From a virus: 40,813 nucleotides of DNA. The stretch lies in the IMG/VR virus record IMGVR_UViG_3300046004_001125, positions 1-40,813 of that record. The stretch is one strand, 5' to 3'. A program made the translations under genes and the position numbers. Every line of letters starts with the position of its first letter. Position 1 is the stretch's first letter. A model generated the notes under the pieces. That model searched no databases and had not been told where the DNA came from. It saw only the letters and a program-made list of their open reading frames with translations. Of the stretch, positions 337 through 40,813 are shown one piece after another.

Positions 337-341
337 TGGTG

Positions 342-497
342 TTATTGCTTTACGTCAACGGCACTGTAGCCCATGACGAGCACACCAATACCCACCAACG
401 CCTGAGAAATCCAGAGATATTCTGGGGGCAGGCTTAGTCCAAGACCTTGACCAAGCGCAGCAAGCAATCCGCCAAAAGTAGTTTTCCAGTTTTTCAT
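342..497 (-). CDS. 51-residue membrane protein, holin-like (copy 1)
   Basis: I chose the start at MKNWKTTFGG because this ATG overlaps the stop of the preceding gene (ATGA at 494-497) and the same start is kept in the second copy. The open frame extends further upstream without support. The protein has two hydrophobic segments (about residues 7-20 and 29-44) joined by a short SLPPEY turn, and ends in a short polar tail. Small proteins starting with a similar Lys-Asn-Trp-Lys motif are common in phage lysis cassettes and are often labelled holins. Function is inferred from size, topology and position only. Confidence 0.7.
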   Translation of the reverse strand: MKNWKTTFGGLLAALGQGLGLSLPPEYLWISQALVGIGVLVMGYSAVDVKQ

Positions 498-733
498 AGT
501 TGTGTGTTTGGGTTTATTGAGCAGGACAGGGTAGTGGTAATCGGCGCTTTCCATGTGGGCTTGTTTGGGCACTCCGTGATCGGGCACCCGTAGATGGCAC
601 GCTCCAGACTGTCGATCCGCAGTGCTTGCTTGTCCCGGTCAGACAGACAAATCTCGGACCTTCGGAACAGGATGACGATTGCCCCGGTCAGGGAACCAAT
701 CGCGGTGATGATCAGAGGATCGGCGATTTCCAT
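494..733 (-). CDS. 79-residue membrane protein with coiled-coil-like tail (copy 1)
   Basis: An N-terminal membrane segment (about residues 6-23, PLIITAIGSLTGAIVIL) is followed by a charged helical stretch that could form a coiled coil, then a Cys-containing segment (YGCPITECPNKPTW). It starts right after the tailspike stop (the tail of that gene lies at 743). The ATG follows a C-rich leader (CCCCAACC). This topology fits a holin, an antiholin or another lysis accessory protein, and I cannot choose between them. The copy at 40547-40786 diverges most in the middle charged region while the membrane segment and the Cys motif are kept, which argues for selection on both parts. Confidence 0.7.
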   Translation of the reverse strand: MEIADPLIITAIGSLTGAIVILFRRSEICLSDRDKQALRIDSLERAIYGCPITECPNKPTWKAPITTTLSCSINPNTQL

Positions 734-742
734 GGTTGGGGA

Positions 743-2939: not shown

Positions 2940-5900
2940 CTACTTGCCCTTCTGCTCCTCGCGTAGTCGCTCCAGTTCCCGCAGGTTCTTTGCCGCCTTG
3001 TCCACCTTGGCTTGGGCTTCCTCCTCGGCAGTCTTCTCGGCAGGCGGATTTAACTCCTTGTCCTTCAGTCGGCGCATCTTGAGTTCGTGCGAGATGGATT
3101 CCTCCTCGGTTTCAATGTAGTTGTCGAGCAAGTCAAAGGCAGTCGATCCCACCCGTGCCACTACAGCAAACCGGGCATCGCCGGTCATGATCGCAGTGCC
3201 AATTGCCGTGCCTCGGATGACGTCCGAGGTCATCTCGTAAGGCTCGACCTTGCCCTTCTCTGAGGTGACCATTCGCACCCCGCGCCCTGCCCACGATCCG
3301 GCAGAGGTCAGGATGCTCTCATTGATTGCTGGACCGCTCTTGAAGGCAGCGCCAACGGCATCGATGGCAGGTCCAAACATTGGCAGTGCAGACCATGGCC
3401 CGATTGCCGCAGCAATGAGGTAGTCAGACAACTGCCAGTGCAGCGGATCAAAGACGTCGTCGCCATCGTCGTCGTCGTTGGCATCGCGCCATGCGTTGGT
3501 GATCGTCTGCATGATCAAGCCGGTAACCACATGGTCAACGATCACAAGTTTAACAAGCCGCCCCCAATCCTTCTCAGCGTAGGCTTCCATCTGAAGTGCC
3601 ATCTTCTGCCGGGGATCGGACTGGAAGGAGAAGATCGCCCGCGCCATGGCGTTGCGCTCCATCTCCACGGTGCTCTTGTCGAGGAACTCGGTGGGCTGGG
3701 TGACGTCAGCAATCGACTGCTCGGTCGCTGCCAGTGCCATCCTCTGAGCTTCCTCTGGGGCAATGCCATCCTTGAGGAACTCCCGTAGATGGAAATCGTA
3801 GGCAATGGCAACGGAACCACTGGTGAAGATTGCGTCACTGTATGCGTGAAGGGCCATGCCTCCCTCCATAAATGCCTTCAACGCACCGGGACGCATCGTT
3901 GCTATCCGAGCCATGCCTGCCTGCATTTCGGGACTCATCCCGCTATTGATGCGGCGTTGGATGATCTCGCTGCTTTGGAAGACGGAGCCTTTACCAACCC
4001 ACCAGTTCAAGCGTCCGCCAAACAACCGGACGATCCCTTTTAGGTATTGATCCGGCGGCATCTTGCGAGCCATGCCAAGCAGGTTCAGGACGTTGGTGAA
4101 TGCGGACTTGAAATTCCACGCCAAGACTGCGACTGCCCGTGCCCCTCCCATGTTGGACAGTTGGCTTTCAAACCATCCGGGTTTCTGGGTCAAGCCGCCC
4201 TGCTCCATGGCATCCATCCACTTGTCCATCAGTTCTGTGCCGATCTTACCGTGCTTAACGGCAAGTGATCGCCGGATTTCCGGTTTGCTCATCACGCCCC
4301 GCATCTCCCGTGCAAGCTCAGCAAAGGCTTTGAAGTGGGCCACCTGCCGCATGTGATCAAAGAAGACGTCTATGGCATTCACGATCCGGGGTTCTGCTCC
4401 GTGCTTTTCAACACGTTCCTTGAGCATGCCGGTGCTCATCCCGCCCTGTGCCATGATCGGCCCACCACTCGGGTCAGGATTGGCAAGCTCTTTCCTCTGC
4501 TGACTCCAGAATTTCAGCGGTGAGTAGTTCTCAATTTGCGGCAGGTTCACGCCAAACATTCCGGCAAAGACTGCATTCAGGTCTCCCCATTCGTTGGTGT
4601 ACCGGGAAGCGATCCAGTCGCGGATGGCTTTAGCTTCGGGCGACATGAACGCTTCCACCTGGGTAATCGTCTCCTCGGTGTACCCGTGCGCCTCCATTGG
4701 TGCCCGTCCCTGCGCCTGCCGCCACATGAGGGATATGTGCATAGCCTGCCCTTGGGAGAGCATGATCTCGCTGCCCACCGTGCTGCCGCTGATCTTGGTC
4801 AAAGAGATCGTGTCCTTCGGTCGCTTCTCAAGGATGTTGGCATCCAGTGCTACTCGCATCTCTGCCTTCTCTGCGTCGGTGTATTGTTCTGCCAGTTCCG
4901 GTGCCTTCCCGGCAAGGATGTTCTCGGCAGTATTGACCGGAATCGTCTCGCGGGACTTCTTCATTTTGTCCGTGATCAGCACCCCGGACTTCTCCACAGG
5001 TTCGACAATGTCGTCGTACAACTTCCGATCACCTTTCCAGCCCTTGCCGTAAAGCCGGTCCTTCAGGTCGCGCCAGTCTTTCTGCAAGGCTTGGAACTCA
5101 ATGGTGCGTTTAATGATTGCCTTCCGTGAAGCTGCCGTCCACCGCTTGAACAACTCGGAGTCCTTCCCAAACAATGCCCGCATGGCCCCGCTAAATCCTG
5201 ACGATCCGGCGCGGAACTCTCCAAGCTCACTGGTCGAGTTAAGCCGGTCTGAGTCGGTGGTAGGTCCATCAAGCGCATCCACTCCGCCGTTAGCAAGCCG
5301 GGTATTCTCGTTTAAGCGGTTCTCTTCCTTGATGCGCCACTTAGTCCGCTCCCGTTTGTAGTTTTCTTTTAGCCAAGTCAATGCGTTGGCCAAGTCCCGT
5401 GCCGTCCGGGTCTTTCCGTTCAGGTCGCCAAACATCACCGCAGCTTGCAGCTTCTCAGCCAGCACCGGCACCGCGTCAGGATCGTCCATGCGTGCCTTCT
5501 CAATGGCATCACTGAGTTCCATGATTGCCTTGTTTGTCTCCTCCTCGGACATGCCAGCCGCAGCCTTCACCGCATCAAACAGAACGTGTCCTTCAGCACC
5601 CAGCTTGCCGCCGGGTTTCTTGCCACTCGCACGCTTGGCATCGCCCTTCTTGATCAGGTCTTTGATCTGCTCGACGTAGTCTTTGCGTAGGTAGTTCTCG
5701 ACTGCGTTGTTAAGCTTCTCCACCCGGTCCTTTAGGTATTTCTCCATGGATGCGTTCGTCCGCAATCCAGCAAGGGACACAAACCCGCCAACTTTGTTGC
5801 GAACCTCGGCAGGGAACGGCATCAGGATCGTGTCCAGTGCGGCAAGATAATCCAGCATCGTAGCGCGTTGCTCACGTTCGCCAGTCTTTTGAGCGTTGGC

Positions 5901-8900
5901 TTTGCGTTGCGCTGCTTGTTCCTGCTTCAGAAGCTTGACCTCTTGCTGCTCCTTGGCCCTTGCCGCGTCCGTTGCCTTCTGCTGCTTGGTCTCCAGTGCC
6001 AACTTCTCCGCACGCTGCTGTGCTTGGAGCGTGGTCTGCTCCAGCCTCTGCCTGACCTTCAGCGCATCCTTCTGGTCTGCCGTCCATCCGTCTGCCTGTG
6101 CGCCTCCAGCCTCAATGTCTGCCTTCACGCTCAGGTCTTGCAGTGCAGTCTCATGCTTTACCTTCAGTTCCTTGAGTGCCTCCTCGTCTGCACGCAGTCT
6201 CTGCTGCTCCTCCGCACTGTAACGATCCACCACCCCAGCCAAGGCAGTCGCCTGCTGCTGCTCCATTTGAGCCATCCCAGCATCGTTTGCTGCGGTCGCT
6301 ACGTCGTCACGGAAGCCAATGTCCCGCGCCATTCTGCCCAAGTTCTCTGATGCCCTCTGCATCATCTTGAACCGGACGTCAGGATCAATGGCGACCTTGT
6401 CCAGTTGCGCCTTGATGTTCTCAAGACCGGCTGCGGTGGTTATGCTGTAGCCTGTGCCAGCAGCGACAGCTTGCTTTAGTGCTTCAAATCTGTCTGTATC
6501 AAGCCCAAGCGTCCGCAATTGCGCGGGAGTCAGCTTTGTGGAGGTAAGAGTTTCGAGAGTGGTATTAGCTCCTCGGGGTACGACTGCTCGACGTCCACCA
6601 ATAGTCCCTCCAGCACTTCCTCCGGCGGGGACATCCCCCTGTACTCCGTCACCGATTGGCCCACGAATTTCCTCAGGAGTTGGTTCTGAAGTGGCCCAAG
6701 TGCCCGCATTCGATTCGTCGTACACACGTTGTCCAACCTCGTCCGCAATAGTTTCTGTTCTGATTCCTCCATGGGACATGATTACCCGATCCGGCATCTT
6801 TTGTCCATCCCAACCTTGCGACGTCCAATAATCCTTTAGGGCAGCTTCTTTGTGCGCTCGTTCTGTCTCAGTCTTTCCAAGCTTGTTGCGGTCGTACGGT
6901 ATTACAATGCGATTGCCTTCCCTGTCTTGCGGAGCAGTCCAACCGTGCTTTGCAAACGCCTCTGGTAGCACTCCGTTTGGATTAGCTGCGGTTGGTACGG
7001 CGTAGACTTCCAAGCGGTTTGCTCCTGCCTCAATGGCCCGCGCCACGATTAATGGAAGCATCCCCTTCACGCCGGTATTGTTAATCACGGATCGAAGTTC
7101 CCGAGTTCCGTCCGGCATCAAGTGAACTGAAAAACCAACGTCACGATCACCTACTTGCTTGCCAAGGGTGTACAGTTCAACGGTTCCGGCTTTGACCAGT
7201 TCCTGCATTTCCGCTTTAGAATACTGGCGCATTGTGTTTGCCGCCTCTGATCGGGCCTGCATGTATAAGAACTCCGCCAGTCCTTTGGTGCTTCTTTTTG
7301 TAATGGTGCTCCAAGTGCCTTCTACCGCTTCAGTAAATGCTCGGATAGCAGGTGGATTGACTCCCATTTCACCAAGTTTTTGAACTGACTCAATGTCCGC
7401 AAACAATTCTTCAGTGAGTAATTGACCATTAATTCCTTTTGGCATTCTTGTGAGCAGAAAAGCAGGACGCCCCATTGCCCCCGGTTTTTCCCCCTTCTTA
7501 ATCTTTTCTGCATTAACGGCATCAGACGCTGCCTTAAATTCCGTAATCATGCCCGGAATTGCAACATCCAAAGGAATGGGTGTTCTGAAGTGGGCAATCA
7601 TTCGGCCAGGAATAATTGTGTCGTAAGACATGTGTTCTGGAACGCCAAAGTTTGAAGCACCAAGGTCGTTGCGTAGCACCCAGTTGCCGTCAACTTGCGT
7701 TGCCATTCGGTCGATATCGATAAGCAGCATCGACAACATCGATCCCGGCTCTACTCCATGATATGAAGCGTCACGGGTGCTCAATAGCGTTCTGGCGGCA
7801 GAAGGAGACCCAAGAGCAATTGCTTCGGCAGATTGGGTAACGTCAACCACCTCTGCCCTGTTTTCAAAGCTCAAGCGTCCAAATACGATTGGAGCGTCTG
7901 GATTGGTAAAATCAGGGAAATTATTGAGTGCCTTGCTTCTGCCTCTAATAAGAGTCAGTAATTTTTGGTTGTCCTCTGGGTTGATTACTTCAGTGCTGAT
8001 GGCATGCGCCATGTCAGCTACAAAAACCATGCCGTTGTTGGCGTTGGATTTGTGAGTCTCCTGATCCATTGCGTTGGGAGCAAGCAGGGCATAGTGTCGC
8101 CCGGTCTTTTCGTCCTTCCAAATAACGCCGGTTTTGACCATGTCGCGGAGTAAAGCAATTACTCCATCACGCGAAGATGCCCACGCGGCAGTTGTTTCTT
8201 CAGAACCTTTTACATAATGCATCAAAGGGTAACCTGCGCCACCTTGCATAGGTACTCCACGAACGCTTCCAGATGCTCCCAGCAAGTCAGCCATAGCAAG
8301 GAAAAACCTTTTTCCAATGTATTTCTTAGGAATCATTGTCGGCACCTCTTTTGCGTCAGCCACTTCATTGGCGGCAACAGTCGGACCAGTGGGATGCCCC
8401 TGCCCATTTAACACGCTGGCAATCCTATTCCCGGCAGCAATTTCCTTTTGTCTCTTCTCTTCTTGTTTGGCTTGCTCCTTGGAAGTGGGAGCAATCGAGT
8501 ACCCAATGTTCTCGGACTCAGGATTGAACCGCTGGCTCAGCGGGATGACGTTGCCCTGATCGTCGTAGGTGATTGGGTCGGCGGATTTGATTTGGTTGGG
8601 GCTTGGAATAATTATTGAAACGCCACCCTCAACTGCATTATTGTAAAGGATCGCATCAAAGCCAGATGCGTCAAAATTCTTCCGCATTGATCTTCCAACG
8701 CTCTGTCTCCACGCACGATCCGCAGATTTGCTTTTTTCTGCTTCAGCGTTTCGACCAGTAGGTACGTCACTTAAAATATCCATCCCAAACTGGTTTTCTC
8801 CTACAAGTCCCCGTGGTCCTTCCAGTTCGATAACCTTTCCATTTGGCAACGTGACTTCGCTTTTAGGATTAAGGCTTTTCTTTAGTTGATCTAATCGCGC

Positions 8901-11900
8901 AGTAATTTCTTCAACTTTGGCAAACTCCTCTGGGAAGGCTTGTCTTTCCCGTTTTTTCTTTTCATCCACCCAAGCGGTGATCCCTTGTTGTTCTAGGATT
9001 TCAACCGGGACGTCAATTTTGGCATTTGCGGTTTTATTGTACAGATCGTCATTGGCAATTTTTAGCTCTTCTGCCAACGCCGTTACTTTAGGTCCATGGT
9101 CTGCGAGAATCCGTTTGGTTTCTTGGATGTTGCCGGGGGCTAAAGCATCACCACCAAGTGGATTTGTGATGCGAAGGTAAACTCCGTAAAGCTGCGGATT
9201 TGTAGGTGCATCTTTAGCCCCATAAAGTTCGTCCATAAATCGACGAGCAACGGATTCTTCTTCTGCAAAATGCGCCCCAAGGAATGTATTTGGATCAGCA
9301 GTGTTTCCAGACTTTGTGTTAATTGTGTTTCGTTGCGTATTGAAAGTGACAAACCCTCCGCTCGGAGTGCCATGCCATGCCGCAACATTATACCCCGCCG
9401 CCTTCGCCGCCTCATCGACCAACGCCTGCTGGGTAGCTACATCACCGGATTCAACCGCTGCCATGTAGTCTGCGTCCCGCTTGGTGCTGATTGAGTAGCC
9501 GGTTGCGTCTGCTTGCTCGGTTGGATCAAACAACGCTTGGTCGCCAATGTTGTCCAGCACCACCTTGTAGGTTCCGTCTGCCTGCTTTTCAAATACCCGA
9601 ACGGCAGAGTCTTTGGTGACGCTTCCAATCTCAGCGGTGACGTATCCGCTTACTTCACTCGTCTTAGTCCATTGACCTTCCACGGGATTAACCTCCAAGA
9701 CATAGCGGCCCTTGTATCTTGCCGCCTGTCCTCCGGTGGCTGCATACAACACAGGGTAACCGCCCATGTCGTTCACTTTTGAATTTGGGTTTGGACGGAA
9801 GTAGCCAATGTTCTGGAAGTCTGCCCAAGCGTTGTCGTCAATTACCCGGTAGTAACGGTCTGGACGGTAGAGGATGTTGTCCTTTCGCGTGGTGGTGTAC
9901 TCATTATTGATCGCTTCCTTCAGTGGCTTAGGACGACGCAGTTCCTTGTTGTGGTCGTAAATCAGTGGACTGATTGAATACGACATTTGGGTGTCGGTGT
10001 CCTGTGCTGCAAACGATTCAACGGAAGGCAAGGGACTGACTGAGTACCCAAACGTGCTGGTTCCCTGCCCGGTCTCTAGGTTGTAGGTAGTCGGCACCGC
10101 TTCCGCCACCTTCGCCTCCAGTGCGTCCTGCTCTTTCAATCCTACAGACTCGCGGATCATTGCTTCTAGATCGTCAAGCAGTCCTGCGTCTCTGGCTTTT
10201 TGTAGCCGGTACACCTGACCCATGATGCCTTTGAGGTAGTCGAGATACTCGCGCATCTTGGCAAAGGCGGAAGGCGTGACTCCTGCCGCTTCAGCGGATC
10301 GCAGTCTCTGCCGCTCGGAACGGATGCTGGAAGCCATCTCAGACCGTGCCCCTGCGGTGATCTTGTTGCCTTTACCTTTACGGGTGCCGGTGGTGTACAA
10401 GCGGACCAGAGAAGACCATGCTTCGGTGATCCCCGTCTCCGTGTTGTCGAGCAGGTACTTGTCCCCGGTAGACTTCTCAATGCGCTCAATAATGCCACGC
10501 ATTGTTTCCAGACTTGTGTTGCCAGCAATGACCGCTTCCCGCAAATCGTTTTCTGCCTGCTCCTCGACAAGGTCCAACGTCCGCCCCTCCCGAAATACGA
10601 GCGAGATGGACTTTGCCACGTTGCCCTTTGCCTCGGTCTTGGATCGTCCCAGCACAATCATTCCGTCCAATGCCGCAGCACTGTCTGGGTTGTTCTTGTC
10701 GCGCTCCAGCACCTCCATGCCCGCTTTCTTGCGCTCCTGATCGGCCCGGTCCCAGATCGATTCCACCCACTGCTCTTTGTTCTGGGTGGTCGCGTCCTCA
10801 AGTTCCTGCAACAAAGACCCAGATTTATTGGAAAGCTGGATTGTGCGTCCCGGCTGCATCATGCTGGTAAACTCTCCCAATGCGTCAAGGAACGTCTCCT
10901 CGCGGGCCATACCCCGTGCCTTAACAATGGACCGCACCGTCGTCATTGCCTCCTCGGCAGTAGTGTGCGGGATGGCAGTGCCGTCCGTGTCGTCTACTAC
11001 ATTAAACCCATTAGTGGTGCGTGTAATGCTCACCCCTGCCGTCTTCATCTCGTTCAGTTCAACCTGCCCCTGCGCCATCTGAGCATCGACCTGTGCAGCT
11101 ACCTGCTGCTGCGCGGCAATAGCACCCGGCGTTTGCACGTTCCGGTTTGGGTATTCGGCAAAGTATGCTGCCTTCCGCTCTGCTTCCGGCATGGCAACGA
11201 TCTCCGCAGCCTTGGCTGGAGTGATGCCAAAAGCCTCAAGCTTTGTCTGATCACCAAGCATTTCGGTCAACGCTTCCTGTGCCCGTCTTGAGCTTTTGAT
11301 GCCACTGTAACCGCCACCAAACACGGACAGTGCCATAACTGTCAAGAATACTTCAGGTCGCCAGAACCCGCCTTCTTCCTTGAATTGGGAAATCTCACCT
11401 TGGAACTTGCTCTGCTCTGCCATGTTCCACCCAAGCTTCTCACCAAGCAGTCCAGTAAGTATAGGTGCCGCAGCTTGCCCTATTTCTTCTCCGTATTCTG
11501 CTGCTTGAATGGTCCCCATCTTAGACAGCACCCGGAACGTGGTCGAGGTCTCAAGCGCCGGACCCACCCCCATCACCTTGCTGCCAGCCTTTGCCGCAGT
11601 CAGTCGTGCAATTGTTGACGTTGGCACAAAGTTAAACAAGTACACGGCACGCTCAATACCAGCTTGCACCGCTCCGGTGATTTGTGAAGCCATTTGAGCC
11701 GTTGCAGGATCGTTGCCTTCCTCGCGCAGCCTCTGATATTCCTCGTCAGCATATCCGCCTTGTGCGATAATAAATCCAACCTGCGGGAGTATGATCGGAG
11801 CCATTGCTCCAAAAGACGTTCCAACGTCAATGGCAGTGCGTTGAACGAATCGGCCAAGGGTTGTGTTCTCTGGCTTTACTGGATCAATTGTGCCTTCTAA

Positions 11901-12971
11901 AATGCCAATTGCCTGCTGGGCAGTTTCGTTCCTAGTGATTTTTGCATCTAAAATGTCCCGTGCTTTTTGCACCTCTGCTTCGGATGCATTCCGTCCACCA
12001 GCAAACGCTCCAGCAATTCCGGCATAAGGCCCAAGCATTAAACCAGTGCCGGTGTTTGCCGCAATCAAACGACGGGAAACAGCTTGCTCTACAGTTTCTC
12101 CATCCCTAATCACAAGCCCGCCTCCTTGGTTTAGTTCAGACTTTGCCAGCAACATTGCGCCACGGTCAGCATTAGATGCATATCCACGCAGTTGCCCAAT
12201 TAATCCGCGTTGTGCGCTTACCAACGCCTTGTCAATCACGGCTCCGGTCATGTCGGTGCCGCCCTCTGATTTAAGCATCGCAATCACCATGCCCCGGTCT
12301 TCAGTGCCCAGCATTGCCAATTGATCAATCGCCCCTTCAATCCCTGCCTGCGAATCACCACTGAGCCGATCCTCTTTGCCCTTTGAAAGCATGCCGTAAA
12401 TCTCCCGCGCCAGTGGACGCAATGGTGCCGCTCTTTCCTCAAGCCGCATCCGCACATCAACCCAGTGATGCAGCAAGTCCTTTGCATCCATTTCATCCAT
12501 GCCTGGCAAAGCTTGCGCGTCCGCATTGATGCGGTCCACTTCAGCAAAGCGATCCTTTTCCTTCATTACTAATGCAGACTTTGATGCATCACCGCTGAAG
12601 TATTCAGCATACCCACGGTAGTCCTTGCGCTTCGTAAGGGCTTTGGACATTTGCCCGTAAAATGCATCCTCGTCATCTTTTGCCGCCATCCATTCTCCGC
12701 CAGACTCGTCACCCAGACGACTGTAACTGTTCTCTGCCATCTTCTCTGCATAACCTGCACGCACGGTATCCCATCGCTCATTGACCAGTAAAGGATCAAG
12801 CCCGGTATCCAGTGCCACTGCCGCCATGGAAGCCAGCCGTTTCTTTTCCTGTTCGATCAATGGACCGGAAGCCTTCAAGTGCGCGTCAATTCCTGCGCGT
12901 CGGTCGGGAGGTAATCCGCCCAGCCAGTTGTCAAAATTCAGGACGATGTTTTCAGAGTCAATTTCGTTCAT
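2940..12971 (-). CDS. Giant internal virion / polyvalent protein (3343 residues)
   Basis: At 3343 residues this is more than twice the size of T7 gp16, whose map position it holds (last of three ejection-type genes, before the tailspike). Its ATG overlaps the previous stop (ATGA). Visible layout: a helical N-terminal part with Ala/Gly-rich hydrophobic stretches near residues 307, 385-410 and 540; an ART-PolyVal-like ADP-ribosyltransferase module at about 1158-1490 (WHGTP near 1199, LGAHFAEEES, then YNNAVEGG near 1447, and the closing pattern YDDQG...IPLSQRFNPES typical of polyvalent proteins); a conserved region about 1490-1900; a possible GNAT-like segment about 1937-2047; a long Gln/Lys/Glu coiled coil about 2220-2380; and a C-terminal half of the kind seen in large polyvalent proteins, with hydrophobic segments near 2940-2970, 3137-3160 and 3182-3210. 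YS(I/V) motifs recur near residues 976, 998, 1158, 1490 and 2174. It is probably ejected into the host with the genome. The enzymatic activities are family-based inference. Confidence 0.85.
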   Translation of the reverse strand: MNEIDSENIVLNFDNWLGGLPPDRRAGIDAHLKASGPLIEQEKKRLASMAAVALDTGLDPLLVNERWDTVRAGYAEKMAENSYSRLGDESGGEWMAAKDDEDAFYGQMSKALTKRKDYRGYAEYFSGDASKSALVMKEKDRFAEVDRINADAQALPGMDEMDAKDLLHHWVDVRMRLEERAAPLRPLAREIYGMLSKGKEDRLSGDSQAGIEGAIDQLAMLGTEDRGMVIAMLKSEGGTDMTGAVIDKALVSAQRGLIGQLRGYASNADRGAMLLAKSELNQGGGLVIRDGETVEQAVSRRLIAANTGTGLMLGPYAGIAGAFAGGRNASEAEVQKARDILDAKITRNETAQQAIGILEGTIDPVKPENTTLGRFVQRTAIDVGTSFGAMAPIILPQVGFIIAQGGYADEEYQRLREEGNDPATAQMASQITGAVQAGIERAVYLFNFVPTSTIARLTAAKAGSKVMGVGPALETSTTFRVLSKMGTIQAAEYGEEIGQAAAPILTGLLGEKLGWNMAEQSKFQGEISQFKEEGGFWRPEVFLTVMALSVFGGGYSGIKSSRRAQEALTEMLGDQTKLEAFGITPAKAAEIVAMPEAERKAAYFAEYPNRNVQTPGAIAAQQQVAAQVDAQMAQGQVELNEMKTAGVSITRTTNGFNVVDDTDGTAIPHTTAEEAMTTVRSIVKARGMAREETFLDALGEFTSMMQPGRTIQLSNKSGSLLQELEDATTQNKEQWVESIWDRADQERKKAGMEVLERDKNNPDSAAALDGMIVLGRSKTEAKGNVAKSISLVFREGRTLDLVEEQAENDLREAVIAGNTSLETMRGIIERIEKSTGDKYLLDNTETGITEAWSSLVRLYTTGTRKGKGNKITAGARSEMASSIRSERQRLRSAEAAGVTPSAFAKMREYLDYLKGIMGQVYRLQKARDAGLLDDLEAMIRESVGLKEQDALEAKVAEAVPTTYNLETGQGTSTFGYSVSPLPSVESFAAQDTDTQMSYSISPLIYDHNKELRRPKPLKEAINNEYTTTRKDNILYRPDRYYRVIDDNAWADFQNIGYFRPNPNSKVNDMGGYPVLYAATGGQAARYKGRYVLEVNPVEGQWTKTSEVSGYVTAEIGSVTKDSAVRVFEKQADGTYKVVLDNIGDQALFDPTEQADATGYSISTKRDADYMAAVESGDVATQQALVDEAAKAAGYNVAAWHGTPSGGFVTFNTQRNTINTKSGNTADPNTFLGAHFAEEESVARRFMDELYGAKDAPTNPQLYGVYLRITNPLGGDALAPGNIQETKRILADHGPKVTALAEELKIANDDLYNKTANAKIDVPVEILEQQGITAWVDEKKKRERQAFPEEFAKVEEITARLDQLKKSLNPKSEVTLPNGKVIELEGPRGLVGENQFGMDILSDVPTGRNAEAEKSKSADRAWRQSVGRSMRKNFDASGFDAILYNNAVEGGVSIIIPSPNQIKSADPITYDDQGNVIPLSQRFNPESENIGYSIAPTSKEQAKQEEKRQKEIAAGNRIASVLNGQGHPTGPTVAANEVADAKEVPTMIPKKYIGKRFFLAMADLLGASGSVRGVPMQGGAGYPLMHYVKGSEETTAAWASSRDGVIALLRDMVKTGVIWKDEKTGRHYALLAPNAMDQETHKSNANNGMVFVADMAHAISTEVINPEDNQKLLTLIRGRSKALNNFPDFTNPDAPIVFGRLSFENRAEVVDVTQSAEAIALGSPSAARTLLSTRDASYHGVEPGSMLSMLLIDIDRMATQVDGNWVLRNDLGASNFGVPEHMSYDTIIPGRMIAHFRTPIPLDVAIPGMITEFKAASDAVNAEKIKKGEKPGAMGRPAFLLTRMPKGINGQLLTEELFADIESVQKLGEMGVNPPAIRAFTEAVEGTWSTITKRSTKGLAEFLYMQARSEAANTMRQYSKAEMQELVKAGTVELYTLGKQVGDRDVGFSVHLMPDGTRELRSVINNTGVKGMLPLIVARAIEAGANRLEVYAVPTAANPNGVLPEAFAKHGWTAPQDREGNRIVIPYDRNKLGKTETERAHKEAALKDYWTSQGWDGQKMPDRVIMSHGGIRTETIADEVGQRVYDESNAGTWATSEPTPEEIRGPIGDGVQGDVPAGGSAGGTIGGRRAVVPRGANTTLETLTSTKLTPAQLRTLGLDTDRFEALKQAVAAGTGYSITTAAGLENIKAQLDKVAIDPDVRFKMMQRASENLGRMARDIGFRDDVATAANDAGMAQMEQQQATALAGVVDRYSAEEQQRLRADEEALKELKVKHETALQDLSVKADIEAGGAQADGWTADQKDALKVRQRLEQTTLQAQQRAEKLALETKQQKATDAARAKEQQEVKLLKQEQAAQRKANAQKTGEREQRATMLDYLAALDTILMPFPAEVRNKVGGFVSLAGLRTNASMEKYLKDRVEKLNNAVENYLRKDYVEQIKDLIKKGDAKRASGKKPGGKLGAEGHVLFDAVKAAAGMSEEETNKAIMELSDAIEKARMDDPDAVPVLAEKLQAAVMFGDLNGKTRTARDLANALTWLKENYKRERTKWRIKEENRLNENTRLANGGVDALDGPTTDSDRLNSTSELGEFRAGSSGFSGAMRALFGKDSELFKRWTAASRKAIIKRTIEFQALQKDWRDLKDRLYGKGWKGDRKLYDDIVEPVEKSGVLITDKMKKSRETIPVNTAENILAGKAPELAEQYTDAEKAEMRVALDANILEKRPKDTISLTKISGSTVGSEIMLSQGQAMHISLMWRQAQGRAPMEAHGYTEETITQVEAFMSPEAKAIRDWIASRYTNEWGDLNAVFAGMFGVNLPQIENYSPLKFWSQQRKELANPDPSGGPIMAQGGMSTGMLKERVEKHGAEPRIVNAIDVFFDHMRQVAHFKAFAELAREMRGVMSKPEIRRSLAVKHGKIGTELMDKWMDAMEQGGLTQKPGWFESQLSNMGGARAVAVLAWNFKSAFTNVLNLLGMARKMPPDQYLKGIVRLFGGRLNWWVGKGSVFQSSEIIQRRINSGMSPEMQAGMARIATMRPGALKAFMEGGMALHAYSDAIFTSGSVAIAYDFHLREFLKDGIAPEEAQRMALAATEQSIADVTQPTEFLDKSTVEMERNAMARAIFSFQSDPRQKMALQMEAYAEKDWGRLVKLVIVDHVVTGLIMQTITNAWRDANDDDDGDDVFDPLHWQLSDYLIAAAIGPWSALPMFGPAIDAVGAAFKSGPAINESILTSAGSWAGRGVRMVTSEKGKVEPYEMTSDVIRGTAIGTAIMTGDARFAVVARVGSTAFDLLDNYIETEEESISHELKMRRLKDKELNPPAEKTAEEEAQAKVDKAAKNLRELERLREEQKGK

Positions 12972-28427: not shown

Positions 28428-28663
28428 GGTTGCTCCAAAAGTAGTGCGTTTCTGGCAATGCAGCGCATATCATAAGCTTTAGCAGCAAGCGCATGCATGG
28501 TTGACCGCTCTGGGATTTCATAGATTTTTGCAATCTGCTCCAGCGCGTCGCGGAGTTTCTCGGCATCCTCAAACGGCACCCAGTCTCCATCGTCGCGCCG
28601 TTCCATTTGCCCCAGCGTGGAGCCTCCCATGTCGAAGAATTGTATCGGGTCGTATCTGTTCAT
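28424..28663 (-). CDS. Unknown 79-residue early-type protein
   Basis: It starts MNRYDPIQFFDMGG, then LGQMERRDDGDWVPFEDAEKL and a helix. Proteins of this form (a short acidic strand, then a WV-x-x-x-DAE helix) recur in small early genes of many phages, without known function. ATGA overlaps on both sides. The upstream leader ACCAACCAAAACC is the clearest copy of the recurring start motif. Confidence 0.65.
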   Translation of the reverse strand: MNRYDPIQFFDMGGSTLGQMERRDDGDWVPFEDAEKLRDALEQIAKIYEIPERSTMHALAAKAYDMRCIARNALLLEQP

Positions 28664-29007
28664 GGTTTTGGTTGGTGATGGGTGTAGTGCTTGTAGTTCG
28701 GATCGTTAACCCGGTGCCTGAGTTCGGCCTTGAGGTAGATGGCAAGGTCGAGGGCTTCCTCGTAAGCATGCTGGCACATGTTGTCGAGGCTATCGGCGAC
28801 GGTGCATCCGTACTTCTTGATGCCCAGACGCTGCCTGTCGGCAATGTCCCGGATGACCTCGGCTTCAATGCCAGAGGGTTCCGGCTGAGTCCAGCCCTCT
28901 GGCTCCTCGTGGACGACGTTGCCATCTTGGCAATCGGGGTGATCGGGGTGATACCAGTAGGGACCGGCGGGGGAAGAATAGCGAATGAGTTTAGGGATGG
29001 TGGTCAT
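28660..29007 (-). CDS. MazG-like / all-alpha NTP pyrophosphohydrolase family protein
   Basis: A 115-residue protein. The C-terminal half has the pattern DRQRLGIKKYG, a spacer, then HAYEEALDLAIYLKAEL, with the Glu-Glu-x-x-Asp metal-site signature (about 83, 84 and 87). This arrangement is seen in phage nucleotide pyrophosphohydrolases related to MazG and the dATP/dGTP diphosphohydrolase group. The N-terminus (SSPAGPYWYHPDHPDCQDGN) is an added segment. I chose MTTIPKL as start because it follows a C/A-rich leader. It ends QPKP by reading the next leader. Confidence 0.65.
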   Translation of the reverse strand: MTTIPKLIRYSSPAGPYWYHPDHPDCQDGNVVHEEPEGWTQPEPSGIEAEVIRDIADRQRLGIKKYGCTVADSLDNMCQHAYEEALDLAIYLKAELRHRVNDPNYKHYTHHQPKP

Positions 29008-29030
29008 GGTGGTGGTTTGGTTGGTTGTTT

Positions 29031-29049
29031 CCGGCTGATTGAACCCCGG
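29031..29049 (-). repeat. Intergenic T-arm-like hairpin 3 (weak)
   Basis: On the minus strand CCGGGGTTCAATCAGCCGG follows the stop of the 91-residue gene. Only the outer four pairs form, but the loop sequence GTTCAATC and the preceding CTAAACAT match the stronger hairpin at 29358-29376. Confidence 0.45.
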
Positions 29050-29057
29050 CGGGATGT

Positions 29058-29333
29058 TTAGCAATATTCAGCAACGCGATTGGAGCGAACGTCCTGCGCC
29101 CAGTGGTAGTCGTTGAGTTCTTCCTGCAAAGCCTCCAGCTTGGCTTCCAGTTCCTCAATGCGGAGCCATGGGTCGCTGTTTTTGGCTTCGTGTTCGTCCT
29201 CGGTCTCTTGGTCCCATGTATCGGTGAAGTCGCGGGAGAAAGAGTAAACCGCTTTGCCGTCGTCGTCCTTCTTGCTGTAGTACTCGGTGACGGAGTGGTT
29301 GTGGCGGGAGTGGGTGGTGATTGGATTGCTCAT
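29058..29333 (-). CDS. Unknown 91-residue acidic protein with coiled coil
   Basis: A His/Tyr-containing N-terminus (HSRHNHSVTEYYSKKDDDG), a strand pair, then an acidic helix predicted by eye to be a coiled coil (RIEELEAKLEALQEELNDY). No family recognised. It is not coupled to its neighbours: a T-arm-like hairpin lies on each side, and the leader is C/A-rich (CCAACCAACCAACTACC). Confidence 0.6.
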   Translation of the reverse strand: MSNPITTHSRHNHSVTEYYSKKDDDGKAVYSFSRDFTDTWDQETEDEHEAKNSDPWLRIEELEAKLEALQEELNDYHWAQDVRSNRVAEYC

Positions 29334-29357
29334 GGTAGTTGGTTGGTTGGGATTGGT

Positions 29358-29376
29358 GCCGGGGATTGAACCCGGC
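29358..29376 (-). repeat. Intergenic T-arm-like hairpin 2
   Basis: GCCGGG, 7-base loop TTCAATC, CCCGGC: a perfect 6-bp stem with the exact loop size and most of the sequence of a tRNA T-arm (GG-TTCAATC-CC). No other part of a tRNA is present. It sits nine bases after the stop of the 96-residue gene and is followed by the C/A-rich leader of the next gene. The U-tract of a terminator is missing. Confidence 0.7.
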
Positions 29377-29384
29377 TAAAATGT

Positions 29385-29675
29385 TTAGTCGCCAATTGAG
29401 TAGTAGTTTTCTTCAATGACTTTGCCGTCTTCCAACTTAAAAGAGGGATAGCTGCGTTGGCGTGCGGCGTTAAGTGCTTTGAGGTACTGCTCGGCAGTCA
29501 GTCCCTCGGGAGTGTCGAGGGCGCAGTAGCTGTAGTCGCCCCAGCTACCCTGCACATGGCGATCGGAAAGGTTGGTGCCTTTGCGGGTGCGCCAAAGGGC
29601 GGCACCTTGGGCACGGAGGGCAAGAATTGCGCGTTCTTCGGTGGTCAGAGTGGGGGATTTACGGCGTGTTTGCAT
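29385..29675 (-). CDS. Unknown 96-residue protein
   Basis: I chose the start MQTRRKSPTL after a C/A-rich leader, although the open frame extends upstream through another gene. It has a basic N-terminus, then a helix (LTTEERAILALRAQGAALWR) and a polar C-terminal half ending YYSIGD. Nothing identifies a family. Confidence 0.6.
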   Translation of the reverse strand: MQTRRKSPTLTTEERAILALRAQGAALWRTRKGTNLSDRHVQGSWGDYSYCALDTPEGLTAEQYLKALNAARQRSYPSFKLEDGKVIEENYYSIGD

Positions 29676-29697
29676 TGGATTGGATTGGTTGGAAGTT

Positions 29698-29716
29698 GCT
29701 GGGGATGGAACCCAGC
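29698..29716 (-). repeat. Intergenic T-arm-like hairpin 1
   Basis: GCTGGG, 7-base loop TTCCATC, CCCAGC: a 6-bp perfect stem with the same geometry as the hairpin at 29358-29376, with compensating changes (C-G to T-A) in the stem. It is located nine bases after the stop of the 112-residue gene, again without a U-tract. Confidence 0.65.
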
Positions 29717-29724
29717 GGGGTGAA

Positions 29725-30063
29725 TTAGGCGGCGAACTTATTAAGGATGTCGTTGATCTCGGCTTCGGAGTGCGCCTTGGCTTGGCGTTGCTCTTCCTGC
29801 CGGATGTAGTTGGGCAGGTTGTTCTCGTAGCGGTCGTAACCGTGGAGGATGCCGCCGTAAGACTTGCCGGTGGTGGTGCAGCCTGCATACAGGCTAAGCA
29901 GCACTTCGACTCGGGTCTCCTTGTTGCGGCGGTTGGCGTATTCGTGCCGGGTCTTGATTTCCCACTGCCATGCTTTTTCACAGGCGTGGAACCGGCGGGT
30001 GAGTTGGTCACCGTTGACAAAGCGGATGAGGACAAAGACTTCTGGAACTGCTTGGTTGGTCAT
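29725..30063 (-). CDS. Unknown 112-residue protein
   Basis: A polar protein with a strand-rich start (EVFVLIRFVNGDQLTRRFHA), a basic middle and an acidic/Gln-rich C-terminal helix (EEQRQAKAHSEAEINDIL). No family recognised. It is preceded by a 108-base spacer (30064-30171) that is A/T-rich and ends in a C/A leader (AACAAGCCAAACCAA). I find no firm promoter or terminator in that spacer. Confidence 0.6.
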   Translation of the reverse strand: MTNQAVPEVFVLIRFVNGDQLTRRFHACEKAWQWEIKTRHEYANRRNKETRVEVLLSLYAGCTTTGKSYGGILHGYDRYENNLPNYIRQEEQRQAKAHSEAEINDILNKFAA

Positions 30064-30171
30064 TTGGTTTGGCTTGTTTGGCTGGGTTAATTCCCGTCAC
30101 CAGAGTACACGCCAAATAGTTCTTGTCCACTACTTATTCCACTTTTCTTCAATTATTTTTATCGTGCCCAC

Positions 30172-30345
30172 TTAGTGATCCAGCAGACGCTTCAGCAATT
30201 CGACCATCTCCCACCGGGTGCAGGTAGTTCGCCGTTCCAGCCGGACGATAATCTGGGCAATCAGTCGCAGGATTCCCGCATCCGTCATCCCGGCTGCATT
30301 GGCGGCACGGATCGTTTTGTCGGCGTTGGCTTGAAGCGTGTTCAC
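30172..30345 (-). CDS. Small protein coupled to the helicase loader
   Basis: The best start is a GTG (30343-30345) overlapping the loader stop (GTGA), giving 57 residues. A longer ATG start would run inside the loader gene. The product is helical and basic (DAGILRLIAQIIVRLERR, then WEMVELLKRLL). Its coupling to the loader suggests a replication accessory, but the family is unknown. Confidence 0.5.
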   Translation of the reverse strand: MNTLQANADKTIRAANAAGMTDAGILRLIAQIIVRLERRTTCTRWEMVELLKRLLDH

Positions 30346-31004
30346 TTCCGGTAACTTTCCCAGTCGCAGTTCACGATCCCGCCGCATTCGTTGGCCCGGT
30401 CCATAATGCGCGGCCCGAGGGACTTCTGGGCTTCTGCCAGCGTAAGGTTGGCAATCAGGATCGTCGGCAGTTCGTTTGAGTACCTGGCGTTGATCAGGTC
30501 ATCAAAACGGTGGTTGTCCCATTTCTCCTCGGAGCGGTTCTGCGCCTCGTCCACCACCAAGAAGGGAGTCTTCTTCCAGCCATTCAAGACCGGCTCCATG
30601 TCTTCCTTCCTGACCCAGCACTGCTTGATGCGGTCGAGCATCTCCGTTGCCGTCAGGAATTTACCGGCGGACTTCCCGGCCATTACCCGCGCTGCTGCCA
30701 AGTAAGCGGCAATCACGGTCTTCCCTCTGCCGGTCGGCCCGATCAGGATCAGCAAGCCGTCAGACAGTGCGGCAGGAAGTAGGGATTTGGCGCATTCCAA
30801 TCCCGGCCCATGGAGCGCTCTGAGCGCTTTGATTGCTCTGGACCCATGACCAGCAGCGGACAGGGCTTCCGACGCAGCAGGCGCAACGGCAGGGGCACTG
30901 CTGGCTTGATGAGGCTTGTGGGCATCCATGGCGGAACGGATGCGCTTTTCGATTTCGGATGCGACCGCTGCTGGGTCGATGGTTTCTGGGAGATCGGTGA
31001 TCAT
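30342..31004 (-). CDS. DnaC/IstB-like helicase loader ATPase
   Basis: A 220-residue AAA+ protein with Walker A GPTGRGKT (89-96) and Walker B FLVVDEA (148-154), then NARYSNELPTILIANLT, the sensor region of DnaC-type loaders, and a final arginine-containing segment (GPRIMDRANEC). The first about 50 residues are Ala-rich and flexible. With the organizer protein encoded just before it (ATGA overlap) it would load the host DnaB helicase, like lambda P or DnaC. No phage helicase or polymerase is encoded, so replication must use host enzymes. Confidence 0.85.
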   Translation of the reverse strand: MITDLPETIDPAAVASEIEKRIRSAMDAHKPHQASSAPAVAPAASEALSAAGHGSRAIKALRALHGPGLECAKSLLPAALSDGLLILIGPTGRGKTVIAAYLAAARVMAGKSAGKFLTATEMLDRIKQCWVRKEDMEPVLNGWKKTPFLVVDEAQNRSEEKWDNHRFDDLINARYSNELPTILIANLTLAEAQKSLGPRIMDRANECGGIVNCDWESYRK

Positions 31005-31813
31005 GATTGTGGTTTGTGCTGGTAATAGATTTTGGGGACGATGACTTCAGGTCCGTGCCGCTCGGCTTCCTTCCGCTCCTTGTCCTGTAGGGCGAATGAG
31101 ATTTGAACCGGCTTCCCGGCAGGGGCAGTCTCGCTGATGAACGGAGCATAGCCCTGCGCCTTCCATGACCGGACGGTTGCTTTCCAGTCCTTGATCGGTG
31201 CCTTGCCGTTCGTCCATCCGTTGCCTTCCCATTTCCAGAAGGCGGCAGCACCTTGACCGGCAGGGCATCCAAGAGAGACAGCGAACTCCTCGACCTCTTC
31301 TGGGCATTTTGCCTTTGCCGTGTTTTTTTGCTTGGCGGAATCGCCAAACTCCTTCCCTTCCATTTCCCTTCCATTCCCCTTCCCTTCCACTTCCTTTCCC
31401 TTCCCTTCCCCACGTGCAGGATTTACGAAGAGTTCTGCCTCGTTTGTAATTTCCGTGCGTGCACATGCATGCACGTGCGTTTCCGTGTATTCAGGCAGGT
31501 TTGACTTGGCCTCCCGTAGATTGATGCACTGATGGGAAAGGAAGCTGGGGATGCACCCATACTCACCGGATGCTCCGTAGCGCAGGATCATGCCGGTCCC
31601 CTCAAGGGCACCCAGCACTTCGGCAAAGTTCACCGACTCATAAGGGAAGACCTGCACTCCCAGTTTGCGTGGTTCCCATTTGAACCGGCCTTCACGGTCT
31701 GCAATACACCAGAGGCCAATAAAAGCCAAGCGAACAGGCAGCTTGCTGGATTGCTCCAGTTCGACAAGCCCTTCATGCAGAAAGAACTCGGGTTTGATTG
31801 TACGGATTCTCAT
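31001..31813 (-). CDS. Replisome organizer, lambda-O-like
   Basis: A 270-residue protein. The N-terminal domain (MRIRTIKPEFFLHEGLVELE, then RLAFIGLWCIADREGRFKWEPRKL in part) is a winged-helix type seen in phage replication initiators. A low-complexity Gly/Glu/Lys linker occupies about residues 134-158 (ARGEGKGKEVEGKGN), and a C-terminal part (FWKWEGNGWTNGKAPIKDWK) probably contacts the loader. The linker is encoded by a 63-base purine tract next to a 27-base alternating purine-pyrimidine run. In lambda the origin also lies inside the O gene. A GGAGG lies too far upstream (about 20 bases) to be a normal ribosome site. Confidence 0.8.
   Translation of the reverse strand: MRIRTIKPEFFLHEGLVELEQSSKLPVRLAFIGLWCIADREGRFKWEPRKLGVQVFPYESVNFAEVLGALEGTGMILRYGASGEYGCIPSFLSHQCINLREAKSNLPEYTETHVHACARTEITNEAELFVNPARGEGKGKEVEGKGNGREMEGKEFGDSAKQKNTAKAKCPEEVEEFAVSLGCPAGQGAAAFWKWEGNGWTNGKAPIKDWKATVRSWKAQGYAPFISETAPAGKPVQISFALQDKERKEAERHGPEVIVPKIYYQHKPQS
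31349..31487. other. Candidate replication origin inside the organizer gene
   Basis: 31349-31411 is a pyrimidine tract on the plus strand (purine on the minus) with only three interruptions and a repeating TTCCCTTCC pattern. At 31454-31480 is a 27-base run of strictly alternating pyrimidine and purine containing GTGCAC, TGCATGCA and CACGTG, flanked by direct repeats TTTCCGTG (31450-31457 and 31480-31487). Such tracts favour unwinding or unusual DNA structure. The origin role is inferred by analogy with lambdoid phages. Confidence 0.45.
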
Positions 31814-31899
31814 AACAATAAAAAGGCCACCGCCTCCAGAAAAGTTGAACCCTGCGGAACAAACGCAGACAATTCTTGGAGGGGTGGCAAAGTTTTCAT
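31810..31899 (-). CDS. Possible 29-residue peptide upstream of the organizer gene
   Basis: The frame MKTLPPLQELSAFVPQGSTF and on to a Leu-rich end closes with TGA overlapping the organizer ATG (ATGA), the same coupling used by most genes here. It fills part of a 162-base gap (31814-31975). No Shine-Dalgarno is seen. It could be a translated leader peptide that couples the organizer to upstream translation. It is too short to assign a function. Confidence 0.35.
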   Translation of the reverse strand: MKTLPPLQELSAFVPQGSTFLEAVAFLLL

Positions 31900-31975
31900 G
31901 TTCTCAGAGCGGGGGTTCAATTCCGCATCCCATCGGGATACCGCAATCAAGCAGGTTCCCGAAATCTGGCAAGGA

Positions 31976-32254
31976 TTATTCTTGCAGCTTGTTGGTCCAT
32001 TCTTGCGCGGCTCGGCAGGCATCCTCGACCGTTGGGTATTCCCCGGCAGTGAAGACCTTACCGTCTTTGCAAAGCTGAACGGAGTACATCCTGATCGATT
32101 TGGCCCGCTTGACGTAGACTTTCATGGGCATGTCCCTGATTTTCTTGGTGCGCTTTTTCTGTGCCGGTGCCGGATCGGTTGGCGCATCGGGTAATGGTGC
32201 AGGAAGGAACCGCTTGGCTTGCTCTCTGGCGCGGGATTTTTCTTCTGGGGTCAT
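31976..32254 (-). CDS. AP2-like DNA-binding protein without a nuclease domain
   Basis: A 92-residue protein. A basic, Pro/Ala-rich N-terminus is followed by KVYVKRAKSIRMYSVQLCKD, then GEYPTVEDACRAAQEWTNKL, a strand-strand-helix unit like the AP2 domains attached to the two HNH proteins in this window. There is no HNH core. It may be a remnant of a homing endonuclease or a domain put to use in replication or regulation. The start overlaps the previous stop (TAATG). Confidence 0.55.
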   Translation of the reverse strand: MTPEEKSRAREQAKRFLPAPLPDAPTDPAPAQKKRTKKIRDMPMKVYVKRAKSIRMYSVQLCKDGKVFTAGEYPTVEDACRAAQEWTNKLQE

Positions 32255-32571
32255 TAAGTTGGATTTAGTGCAATTCTGATAACATCGATGGTTGCTGGCT
32301 TGGTGCAGTCGGCTGGCTGGCAATAGAGTAGTCGGTATCCCATGCCAGCCGCAGTGTTCAGTTTCTCCCATTCCTTGATCATTGCTGCCCCTCGGGAGTG
32401 CCTGCCGTTGTTAAAAATACCGCCCTGAATTTCCAACGCGAGTCGCTGGTCCGGCCAACAGAAATCGAACCGCCATTTACGAACCGGGTGGAACCGGAAC
32501 TCAGCAACCGGGGCAGGGATTCCAGCTTGAGCTAGTGCAGCGAGGAAAAGGCGGTCTTGGATCGGGGTCAT
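32254..32571 (-). CDS. PD-(D/E)XK-type endonuclease-like protein
   Basis: A 105-residue protein with EFRFHPVRKWRFDFCWPDQR and LALEIQGG: the Asp of RFDF and the Glu-x-Gln of LEIQGG match the catalytic layout of small Vsr-like, DUF559-like or VRR-NUC nucleases. Then GYRLLYCQP is a typical core strand. Such proteins in phage replication modules can be junction resolvases or repair-type nucleases. The substrate is unknown. I chose MTPIQDR because its ATG overlaps the previous stop (ATGA). Confidence 0.6.
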   Translation of the reverse strand: MTPIQDRLFLAALAQAGIPAPVAEFRFHPVRKWRFDFCWPDQRLALEIQGGIFNNGRHSRGAAMIKEWEKLNTAAGMGYRLLYCQPADCTKPATIDVIRIALNPT

Positions 32572-39926: not shown

Positions 39927-40147
39927 TTGTCAGTCGCCTTTTCCCGCTCGTAGTATGCCTGCGTGGTCGTGACCGGCTGGGTCTCAAGGTCAAGGCTGGC
40001 GTCGTGGTAACGACTGTGGCTTGGTGAAGGCTTAGGCTCATCAGCACTTGCCCGAATCAGCACAGCAACAAACCATCCAACAGCAAACGCTGAGAACAGG
40101 ATCAACCAGAGGTGGTCCTTAAAGGTAAGGTCTTCGGTATCGTTCAT
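39923..40147 (-). CDS. Small single-pass membrane protein, possible inner-membrane spanin or holin (copy 2, complete)
   Basis: A 74-residue protein. The chosen start MNDTEDLTF overlaps the lipoprotein stop (ATGA at 40144-40147). The topology is a short N-terminus, one membrane segment (about residues 13-31, LWLILFSAFAVGWFVAVLI) and a polar tail with Pro, His and charged residues. That topology plus a partner lipoprotein fits an i-spanin, although a coiled coil is not evident. Adjacent to the endolysin gene (ATGA overlap). Confidence 0.7.
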   Translation of the reverse strand: MNDTEDLTFKDHLWLILFSAFAVGWFVAVLIRASADEPKPSPSHSRYHDASLDLETQPVTTTQAYYEREKATDK

Positions 40148-40389
40148 GGCATTGGAAGGACAGGGTTTTTGCCGGGACCATTGGCGACCATGTTGTACGC
40201 CTCTTCGGTAGTGATCAACGCAGGTTCCTCGCTCTTCAGCAGCGGCCAAGACCAAGTGCCGCCAATTTTGCCGGATAAACCGCCGGGTGTTCCGTTGCCG
40301 GGTAGCCCGATCTCTGCGGTCAGACTGATGCAGGAAGGCAGCGTGCCGCAAAGCATTACGGCGCATAATGTGAAGAGGGTTCGTTTCAT
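40144..40389 (-). CDS. Small lipoprotein of the lysis cassette (copy 2)
   Basis: An 81-residue protein with signal and lipobox LPSC, mature part Gly/Pro-rich, and the same C-terminus (NGPGKNPVLPMP) as copy 1. Differences from copy 1 concentrate in the signal peptide (residues 5-16) and at positions 32, 37, 51 and 53. Possible o-spanin paired with the next gene, with which it overlaps by ATGA. Confidence 0.7.
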   Translation of the reverse strand: MKRTLFTLCAVMLCGTLPSCISLTAEIGLPGNGTPGGLSGKIGGTWSWPLLKSEEPALITTEEAYNMVANGPGKNPVLPMP

Positions 40390-40394
40390 TGGTG

Positions 40395-40550
40395 TTATTG
40401 TTTAGCGTCAACGGCACTGTAGCCCATGACGAGCACACCAATACCCACCAAAGCCTGAGAAATCCAGATATATTCTGGGGGCAGGCTCAGTCCAAGACCT
40501 TGACCAAGCGCAGCAAGCAATCCTCCAAAGGTAGTTCTCCAGTTTTTCAT
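40395..40550 (-). CDS. 51-residue membrane protein, holin-like (copy 2)
   Basis: Starts MKNWRTTFGG; the ATG overlaps the stop of the preceding gene. Two hydrophobic segments as in copy 1, with three conservative changes in the protein. The five bases between its stop and the lipoprotein leader are nearly the same in both copies. Confidence 0.7.
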   Translation of the reverse strand: MKNWRTTFGGLLAALGQGLGLSLPPEYIWISQALVGIGVLVMGYSAVDAKQ

Positions 40551-40786
40551 AATGTTTTTTGTGCGTTGATTGAGCAGGACAGGGTAGTGGTATTCGGCGC
40601 TTTCCATGTGGGCTTGTTCGGGCAGTCCGTGATTGGACATCCGTAGATGGCACGCTCCAAAATATCGATTCGCACCTCCTGCTTGTCCCTCGCTTGCAGG
40701 CACTTCTCGGAGCGTTGGAACAGGATGACGATTGCTCCGGTCAGGGAACCAATCGCGGTGATAATCAGAGGATCGGCAATTTCCAT
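40547..40786 (-). CDS. 79-residue membrane protein with coiled-coil-like tail (copy 2)
   Basis: Same layout as copy 1: membrane segment at residues 6-23, charged helix, Cys motif YGCPITDCPNKPTWKAP. The helix region (QRSEKCLQARDKQEVRID against RRSEICLSDRDKQALRID) is the most changed part. Its start lies 9 bases after the stop of the tailspike-type gene. Confidence 0.7.
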   Translation of the reverse strand: MEIADPLIITAIGSLTGAIVILFQRSEKCLQARDKQEVRIDILERAIYGCPITDCPNKPTWKAPNTTTLSCSINAQKTL

Positions 40787-40795
40787 GGTTGGGGA

Positions 40796-40813
40796 TTAGT
40801 GAATAGGTCCGAT
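40796..40813 (-). CDS. 3' end of a tailspike-type gene, cut by the window edge
   Basis: The last five codons (IGPIH) and TAA stop match the end of the spike gene at 743-2887. If the map is circular this is the same gene. If not, a second spike begins beyond the window. Confidence 0.6.
   Translation of the reverse strand: MGPIH

Follow-up and report, generated by a model that had tools for sequence, protein, structure and literature searches.

The window analysed here is a 40,813-base virus record whose coding strand is the minus strand. It encodes a helicase-loader-like protein, a replication-initiation-like protein, a terminase and a major head protein. From 30063 to 28660 on the minus strand there is a run of four small genes separated by three spacers, and each spacer carries one hairpin. 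The run opens with a gene of 112 aa (29725..30063), followed by one of 96 aa (29385..29675, scanned from 29672); both are of unknown function and have no PHROG match. The third gene (91 aa, 29058..29333), covered by the PHROG scan, is also of unknown function, and the fourth (115 aa, 28660..29007) matches PHROG 11184, a family of unknown function. The gene starting at 29675 has an A/C-rich leader (29676..29697, minus strand) that lacks a Shine-Dalgarno sequence. Similar leaders precede window genes that have no hairpin (28663, 28188 and 32816), so leader and hairpin are separate features. Minus-strand starts in the window, for example these three, show ACCAAACC-like A/C-rich leaders and not Shine-Dalgarno sequences. 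A distant BLASTN comparison of the region 28600-32400 with phages gave no match. The two ends of the window (6-760 and about 40059-40813) match each other directly, with 90.9% identity over 755 nt and the same small ORFs, which would mean either that a cassette was duplicated and has diverged or that two variants were joined in assembling a circular genome.

The presence of hairpins in three consecutive spacers, first proposed in an earlier note made from the sequence, is confirmed. Hairpin 1 (GCTGGG-TTCCATC-CCCAGC, 29716-29698, minus strand) lies between the gene ending at 29725 and the gene starting at 29675, and hairpin 2 (GCCGGG-TTCAATC-CCCGGC, 29376-29358, minus strand) between the gene ending at 29385 and the gene starting at 29333. 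Both are perfect hairpins with a 6-bp stem and a TTCMATC loop. Hairpin 3 (GCCGGGG-TTCAATC-AGCCGGA, 29050-29030, minus strand) is decayed. The note had placed the stems shortly after a stop codon, and the measured gaps are 8, 8 and 7 nt for hairpins 1, 2 and 3; the corresponding distances from stem to ATG are 22, 24 and 22 nt. Its C/A leader proved to be A/C-rich and without a Shine-Dalgarno sequence, and the upstream sequence that it had found in two copies is CTAAACAT, common to hairpins 2 and 3. The resemblance to a tRNA T-arm is exact at positions 53-56, 58 and 60-61, and the rest of a tRNA is indeed missing, as ARAGORN finds no tRNA in the window. Two further copies suggested at 30084-30095 and 31909-31926 were not borne out by a covariance model of the family, to which neither belongs. 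With this model, trained on copies including hairpins 1 and 2, these two score 42.7-43.1 bits (E 9e-13 to 1e-12) and hairpin 3 scores 25.0 bits (E 2e-6); beyond the three hairpins nothing in the window exceeds 11.2 bits. Alone in its spacer, hairpin 1 folds at -10.7 kcal/mol (z -3.9) and hairpin 2 at -12.2 kcal/mol (z -3.1), and hairpin 3 folds no better in the window than shuffled sequences (z +0.7). A U-run directly after the stem is absent from all three window copies, none of which therefore qualifies as an intrinsic terminator. The 3' flank of hairpin 2 starts with ACCA.

All three hairpins also occur, among near-identical genes, in related contigs (L005, L006, L007 and L013/L027, the last two names denoting one contig). 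The homologue of hairpin 3 has a perfect stem of 7 bp in L005, L006 and L007 and a 6-bp stem in L027, which identifies the window version as a decayed copy; its spacer in L006 folds at -15.1 kcal/mol. At homologous places loop position 57 varies freely, giving TTCCATC, TTCGATC and TTCAATC. L005 and L006 carry different genes after the third hairpin, and that of L005 is also different from its counterpart in the window. In a more distant relative whose terminase is 81% identical (L147), no element was found within 10 kb upstream of the terminase. This finding, together with the decay of hairpin 3 in the window, indicates that the element is dispensable. In another (L149, terminase 61% identical) a hairpin with a different loop, GGCGCAGGGG CAACT CCCCTGCGCC, stands soon after a stop codon.

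Similar elements are numerous outside these relatives. The earlier note had named their absence from relatives, along with a lack of RNA ends at the hairpins, as grounds for refutation, and a large family was found instead. One scan of IMG/VR, with GGGTTCNATCCC and AACCAA downstream, fixed only two stem pairs and returned at least 120 stretches. Among its distinct sites, 15 lie in tRNA genes, and 66 of the 100 others extend to stems of at least 6 bp. The chance of extension by four more stem pairs is about 2% by our own estimate. A second IMG/VR scan, with an 8-bp stem (GGNGNGGGTTCNATCCCCNCNCC) and unconditioned flanks, also returned at least 120 stretches, against none when the loop of the 8-bp pattern was reversed. 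After removal of tRNA genes, redundant flanks and coding matches, 124 stand-alone, flank-distinct elements form the family set, which includes a GGCGCGGG form; ARAGORN finds no tRNA over the elements kept. Well over a hundred uncultured phage contigs carry the element. Each of 22 long phage contigs has one to three matches to the core pattern, always on one strand per contig, and the reversed pattern has none. We regard the existence of a family of phage intercistronic T-loop hairpins as firmly established. Rfam has no match in the window or in nine element-bearing loci, and a relaxed Rfam search of 28900-29850 gave only a chance hit located elsewhere.

The placement of the element is tied to the gene before it. 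Across the 124 elements the stem starts a median of 8 nt after the stop codon, for 6-bp stems as for stems of 9-14 bp, whereas the distance from stop to loop shifts with stem length. If only stops that end open frames of 60 codons or more are counted, 110 of 124 elements have one 5-12 nt ahead of the stem on the sense strand, compared with 7 of 124 on the antisense strand and 3% at random places. The stem-to-ATG distance is far more variable than the stop-to-stem distance. Copies of the main form most often have their ATG some 13-25 nt past the stem, behind an A/C-rich leader without a Shine-Dalgarno sequence. A U-run follows about a quarter of the elements (33/124), and a TTGACA-like sequence often comes next; the ATG of this form is in many cases 30-140 nt away. 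Clustering of the flanking proteins gives 50 groups upstream and 65 downstream, so the element cannot be attributed to a single gene family, nor is it the leader of one gene. After the U-run form in L184, L191, L195 and similar loci, TTGACATCGCCATCAAATGAATGGCGAT contains an inverted repeat beside a -35-like box, a possible operator or promoter behind the terminator.

Stems range from 6 to 14 bp and are mostly 8 bp, with only a few of 13-14 bp, and the loop is TTCNAYC. Stem covariation is pronounced, with 85 cells changed on both sides compared with 31.6 in shuffles and a score of 0.556 compared with 0.137, falling to 0.05-0.09 when the partner is slid by one column; the percentage paired is inflated by the choice of copies for pairing, and the diversity of stem sequences is not. 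The covarying stems, the invariant loop and the sense-strand placement after stops strongly support the selection on RNA structure that the note had suspected from two stems. In 51 aligned copies, chosen by the TTCNAYC rule, G21, G22, T23, T24, C25, A27, C29, C30 and C31 are invariant. The loop conforms to the T-loop motif (a 7-nt UUCNANY closed by G-C, with U54 and A58 conserved). When the commonest stem was scanned with the loop left free, the same T-loop dominated, accounting for 63 of the 80 loci listed, all already known; the remainder consisted of chance matches rich in GC, together with a small number of loops that differ by one base and stand in the right context, TCCGATC and CTCGATC among them. 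U54, U55, C56, A58 and the G53-C61 pair are kept, and position 57 is open to every base (A and G in 103/127, C and U in 24/127). The loop counts, which also take in loci found with the T-loop fixed, include the rare variants TCCGATC and TCCGACC, with U55 changed to C. Hairpins with other loops also stand at the equivalent place, among them CAACT (L149), AATCA (G028:C79), GCAA and others, so the T-loop is not strictly needed there.

The family thus shows structure-level selection, mRNA-sense orientation, a fixed distance to the stop, a nearly invariant T-loop and, in a quarter of copies, a terminator form. Our preferred explanation, at a probability of about 45%, is an intercistronic RNA hairpin, widespread in uncultured tailed phages, that marks, protects or terminates the upstream message and is capped by a T-loop. 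We infer the mechanism as follows. Judging from its placement, the stem would lie just outside the footprint of a terminating ribosome and just outside that of an initiating 30S subunit, and would thereby stay folded in a translated polycistronic mRNA. It would most likely mark the 3' end of the upstream message, act on it as a shield or as a partial or full terminator, and keep that message apart from the cistron that follows. The copies with a U-run, about a quarter, would be intrinsic terminators; the other three quarters or so are not standard terminators, as they lack the U-run. The T-loop cap, the least certain step, may be kept for compact folding and/or for binding and pseudouridylation by host TruB. 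All copies kept for alignment carry GUUC in the loop, the main motif at which E. coli TruB acts on mRNA (PMC13062092), which makes modification by TruB plausible. It cannot be needed everywhere, because hairpins with other loops occur at the same place and rare copies lack U55. Among the roles offered in the earlier note, marking or protection of the 3' end best fits the stop-tied placement and the U-run after a quarter of copies.

Recognition of the loop could instead be the main purpose of the element, with host TruB (perhaps TrmA) binding or modifying it and so regulating phage mRNA or tying up the enzyme. The GUUC motif speaks for this, as does the retention of U54, U55, C56, A58 and the G53-C61 pair while position 57 varies, and on sequence grounds the hairpins are possible T-arm mimics for TruB/TrmA. 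We nevertheless consider it doubtful, given loop variants in which the change of U55 to C would abolish pseudouridylation of that base, unrelated-loop hairpins at equivalent places, and a literature search that found no function for TruB-made mRNA pseudouridine in bacteria. Mimicry of a whole tRNA, another role offered in the note, is not supported. It is unlikely, too, that a stand-alone mRNA T-arm recruits host TruB/TrmA at cistron boundaries and controls the fate of the phage message, which would make the element a widespread uncatalogued regulatory RNA. The element is in any case a ready test case for whether phages exploit TruB-type T-arm recognition on mRNA. Translational control of the downstream gene, which lacks a Shine-Dalgarno sequence, would make the hairpin an operator for an RNA-binding protein or a device that positions the 30S subunit on the A/C-rich leader. 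The usual ATG distance of the main form (about 13-25 nt past the stem) and the unstructured leader are consistent with it, and some Verrucomicrobia are poor in Shine-Dalgarno sequences (PMC10783764). However, window genes without hairpins have the same type of leader, spacing to the ATG is far looser than spacing to the upstream stop, the U-run form often has its ATG 30-140 nt away, and the downstream proteins fall into 65 clusters; on this evidence such control is rather unlikely.

RNase P cuts some intercistronic regions in E. coli, and the T-arm-like fold could be a site at which RNase P or RNase Z cuts the polycistronic message between genes, as the earlier note had also suggested. The T-loop and the ACCA that begins the 3' flank of hairpin 2 are in keeping with such a site. 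Substrate recognition by both enzymes relies on the length of a coaxial acceptor/T-stem, about 12 bp, and the model substrate of RNase P combines such a stem (~12 bp) with a T-loop and a 3' RCCA, a design from which the window stems of 6-7 bp depart. Stem lengths of 6 to 14 bp, mostly 8, fit processing poorly and the 3' flank is not consistently CCA-like, making this role improbable. Exchange of gene cassettes between phages at a boundary sequence or a single-strand DNA hairpin is equally hard to credit: the same 23-31 nt hairpin segment does occur between many different genes, and L005 and L006 do differ in the gene after hairpin 3, but covarying, variable stems would hinder homologous exchange, the orientation follows mRNA sense and stop-codon distance, and a quarter of the copies have a U-run. 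Within tRNA 3' ends, GGTTCRATCC is the most common part, and the loop region matches it, as remnants of tRNA genes or attachment sites would. Such an origin is already contradicted by the anatomy of the hairpins, with no surrounding tRNA sequence found by ARAGORN, three copies in consecutive spacers, a fixed stop distance and stems longer than a T-stem, and we give it almost no credence. Elsewhere in the window (2940-12971) lies an ORF of 3343 aa for a virion-type polyvalent protein, in which an ADP-ribosyltransferase domain (ART-PolyVal) is matched only weakly, below the curated cut-off. This ORF raised the candidate of N4-like virion-RNA-polymerase hairpin promoters, which was rejected, Pfam giving only that sub-cut-off domain.

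The element shares with the tRNA T-arm the loop UUCRANY, the closing G-C pair and the invariant U54, U55, C56 and A58. However, phage stems are 6-14 bp long where the T-arm has 5, any of the four bases can stand at position 57, and the hairpins stand between protein genes without acceptor, D or anticodon parts. Like intrinsic (Rho-independent) terminators, they have a GC-rich stem soon past the stop and, in 33 of 124 copies, a U-run; unlike them, most copies have no U-run and a start codon close behind, and the loop is nearly invariant, which ordinary terminator loops are not. Intercistronic stabilising or processing hairpins (REP-type elements and operon processing sites) are also RNA stem-loops between operon genes, whereas the phage element has a conserved 7-nt T-loop, tight stop spacing and one to few copies per phage. 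The mRNA target hairpins of TruB, Pus4 and TRUB1 likewise carry GUUC in a hairpin loop, at scattered coding-region sites; the phage elements, whose modification is putative, are recurrent and selected in spacers. The T-loop motif, the intercistronic hairpin and the intrinsic terminator are each already known. A search of open-licence papers found no description of the hairpin family, and the fixed combination of the three as a recurrent phage element appears to be new. It points to a way in which such phages separate genes inside operons.

In cultured phages (INPHARED, BLASTN) there is no convincing copy, only weak matches (E no better than 0.07), of which many lie in tRNA genes. A scan of 84,980 bacteria and archaea, one genome per species, with the 8-bp pattern gave 31 stretches, mostly tRNA genes, short stems or chance matches; nearly all the stand-alone cases with stems of at least 8 bp are in Verrucomicrobiota records. 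One of them, L174, is a phage contig of 56.8 kb that was binned with a Verrucomicrobia MAG and has a 49-bit copy. The window terminase is 53% identical to a relative from a Verrucomicrobiota genome. Among the genomes sampled in three phyla, it has matches in 29 of 388 Verrucomicrobiota, 1 of 392 Planctomycetota and 13 of 398 Pseudomonadota. The best-scoring Pseudomonadota match is 39% identical, as is the best match in a cultured phage. The terminase distribution and the Verrucomicrobiota records of the element together suggest, if indirectly, that Verrucomicrobiota or their neighbours are the likely hosts of the window phage and its relatives. The leaders without Shine-Dalgarno sequences fit the Shine-Dalgarno-poor Verrucomicrobia on record (PMC10783764), and the element may serve as a marker for phages of such hosts. 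The covariance model gave 18 matches at E <= 0.001 in 195 Verrucomicrobiota genomes; those inspected were mostly T-arms of real tRNAs, with a few stand-alone copies (L300, L303, L306). A general host feature was rejected, as Verrucomicrobiota chromosomes rarely carry the element. Bacterial chromosomes of Chthoniobacterales/Spartobacteria MAGs (L170/L303 and L159/L297) have stand-alone 12-bp T-loop hairpins at a T-run. In several Verrucomicrobiia MAGs (L158, L169, L176, L178 and L180) a repeated GGGAGCGGGTTCAATCCCCGCTCCTACCCGATT with the same loop occurs; it has no Rfam match, and its sequence is similar to a group II intron 3' end.
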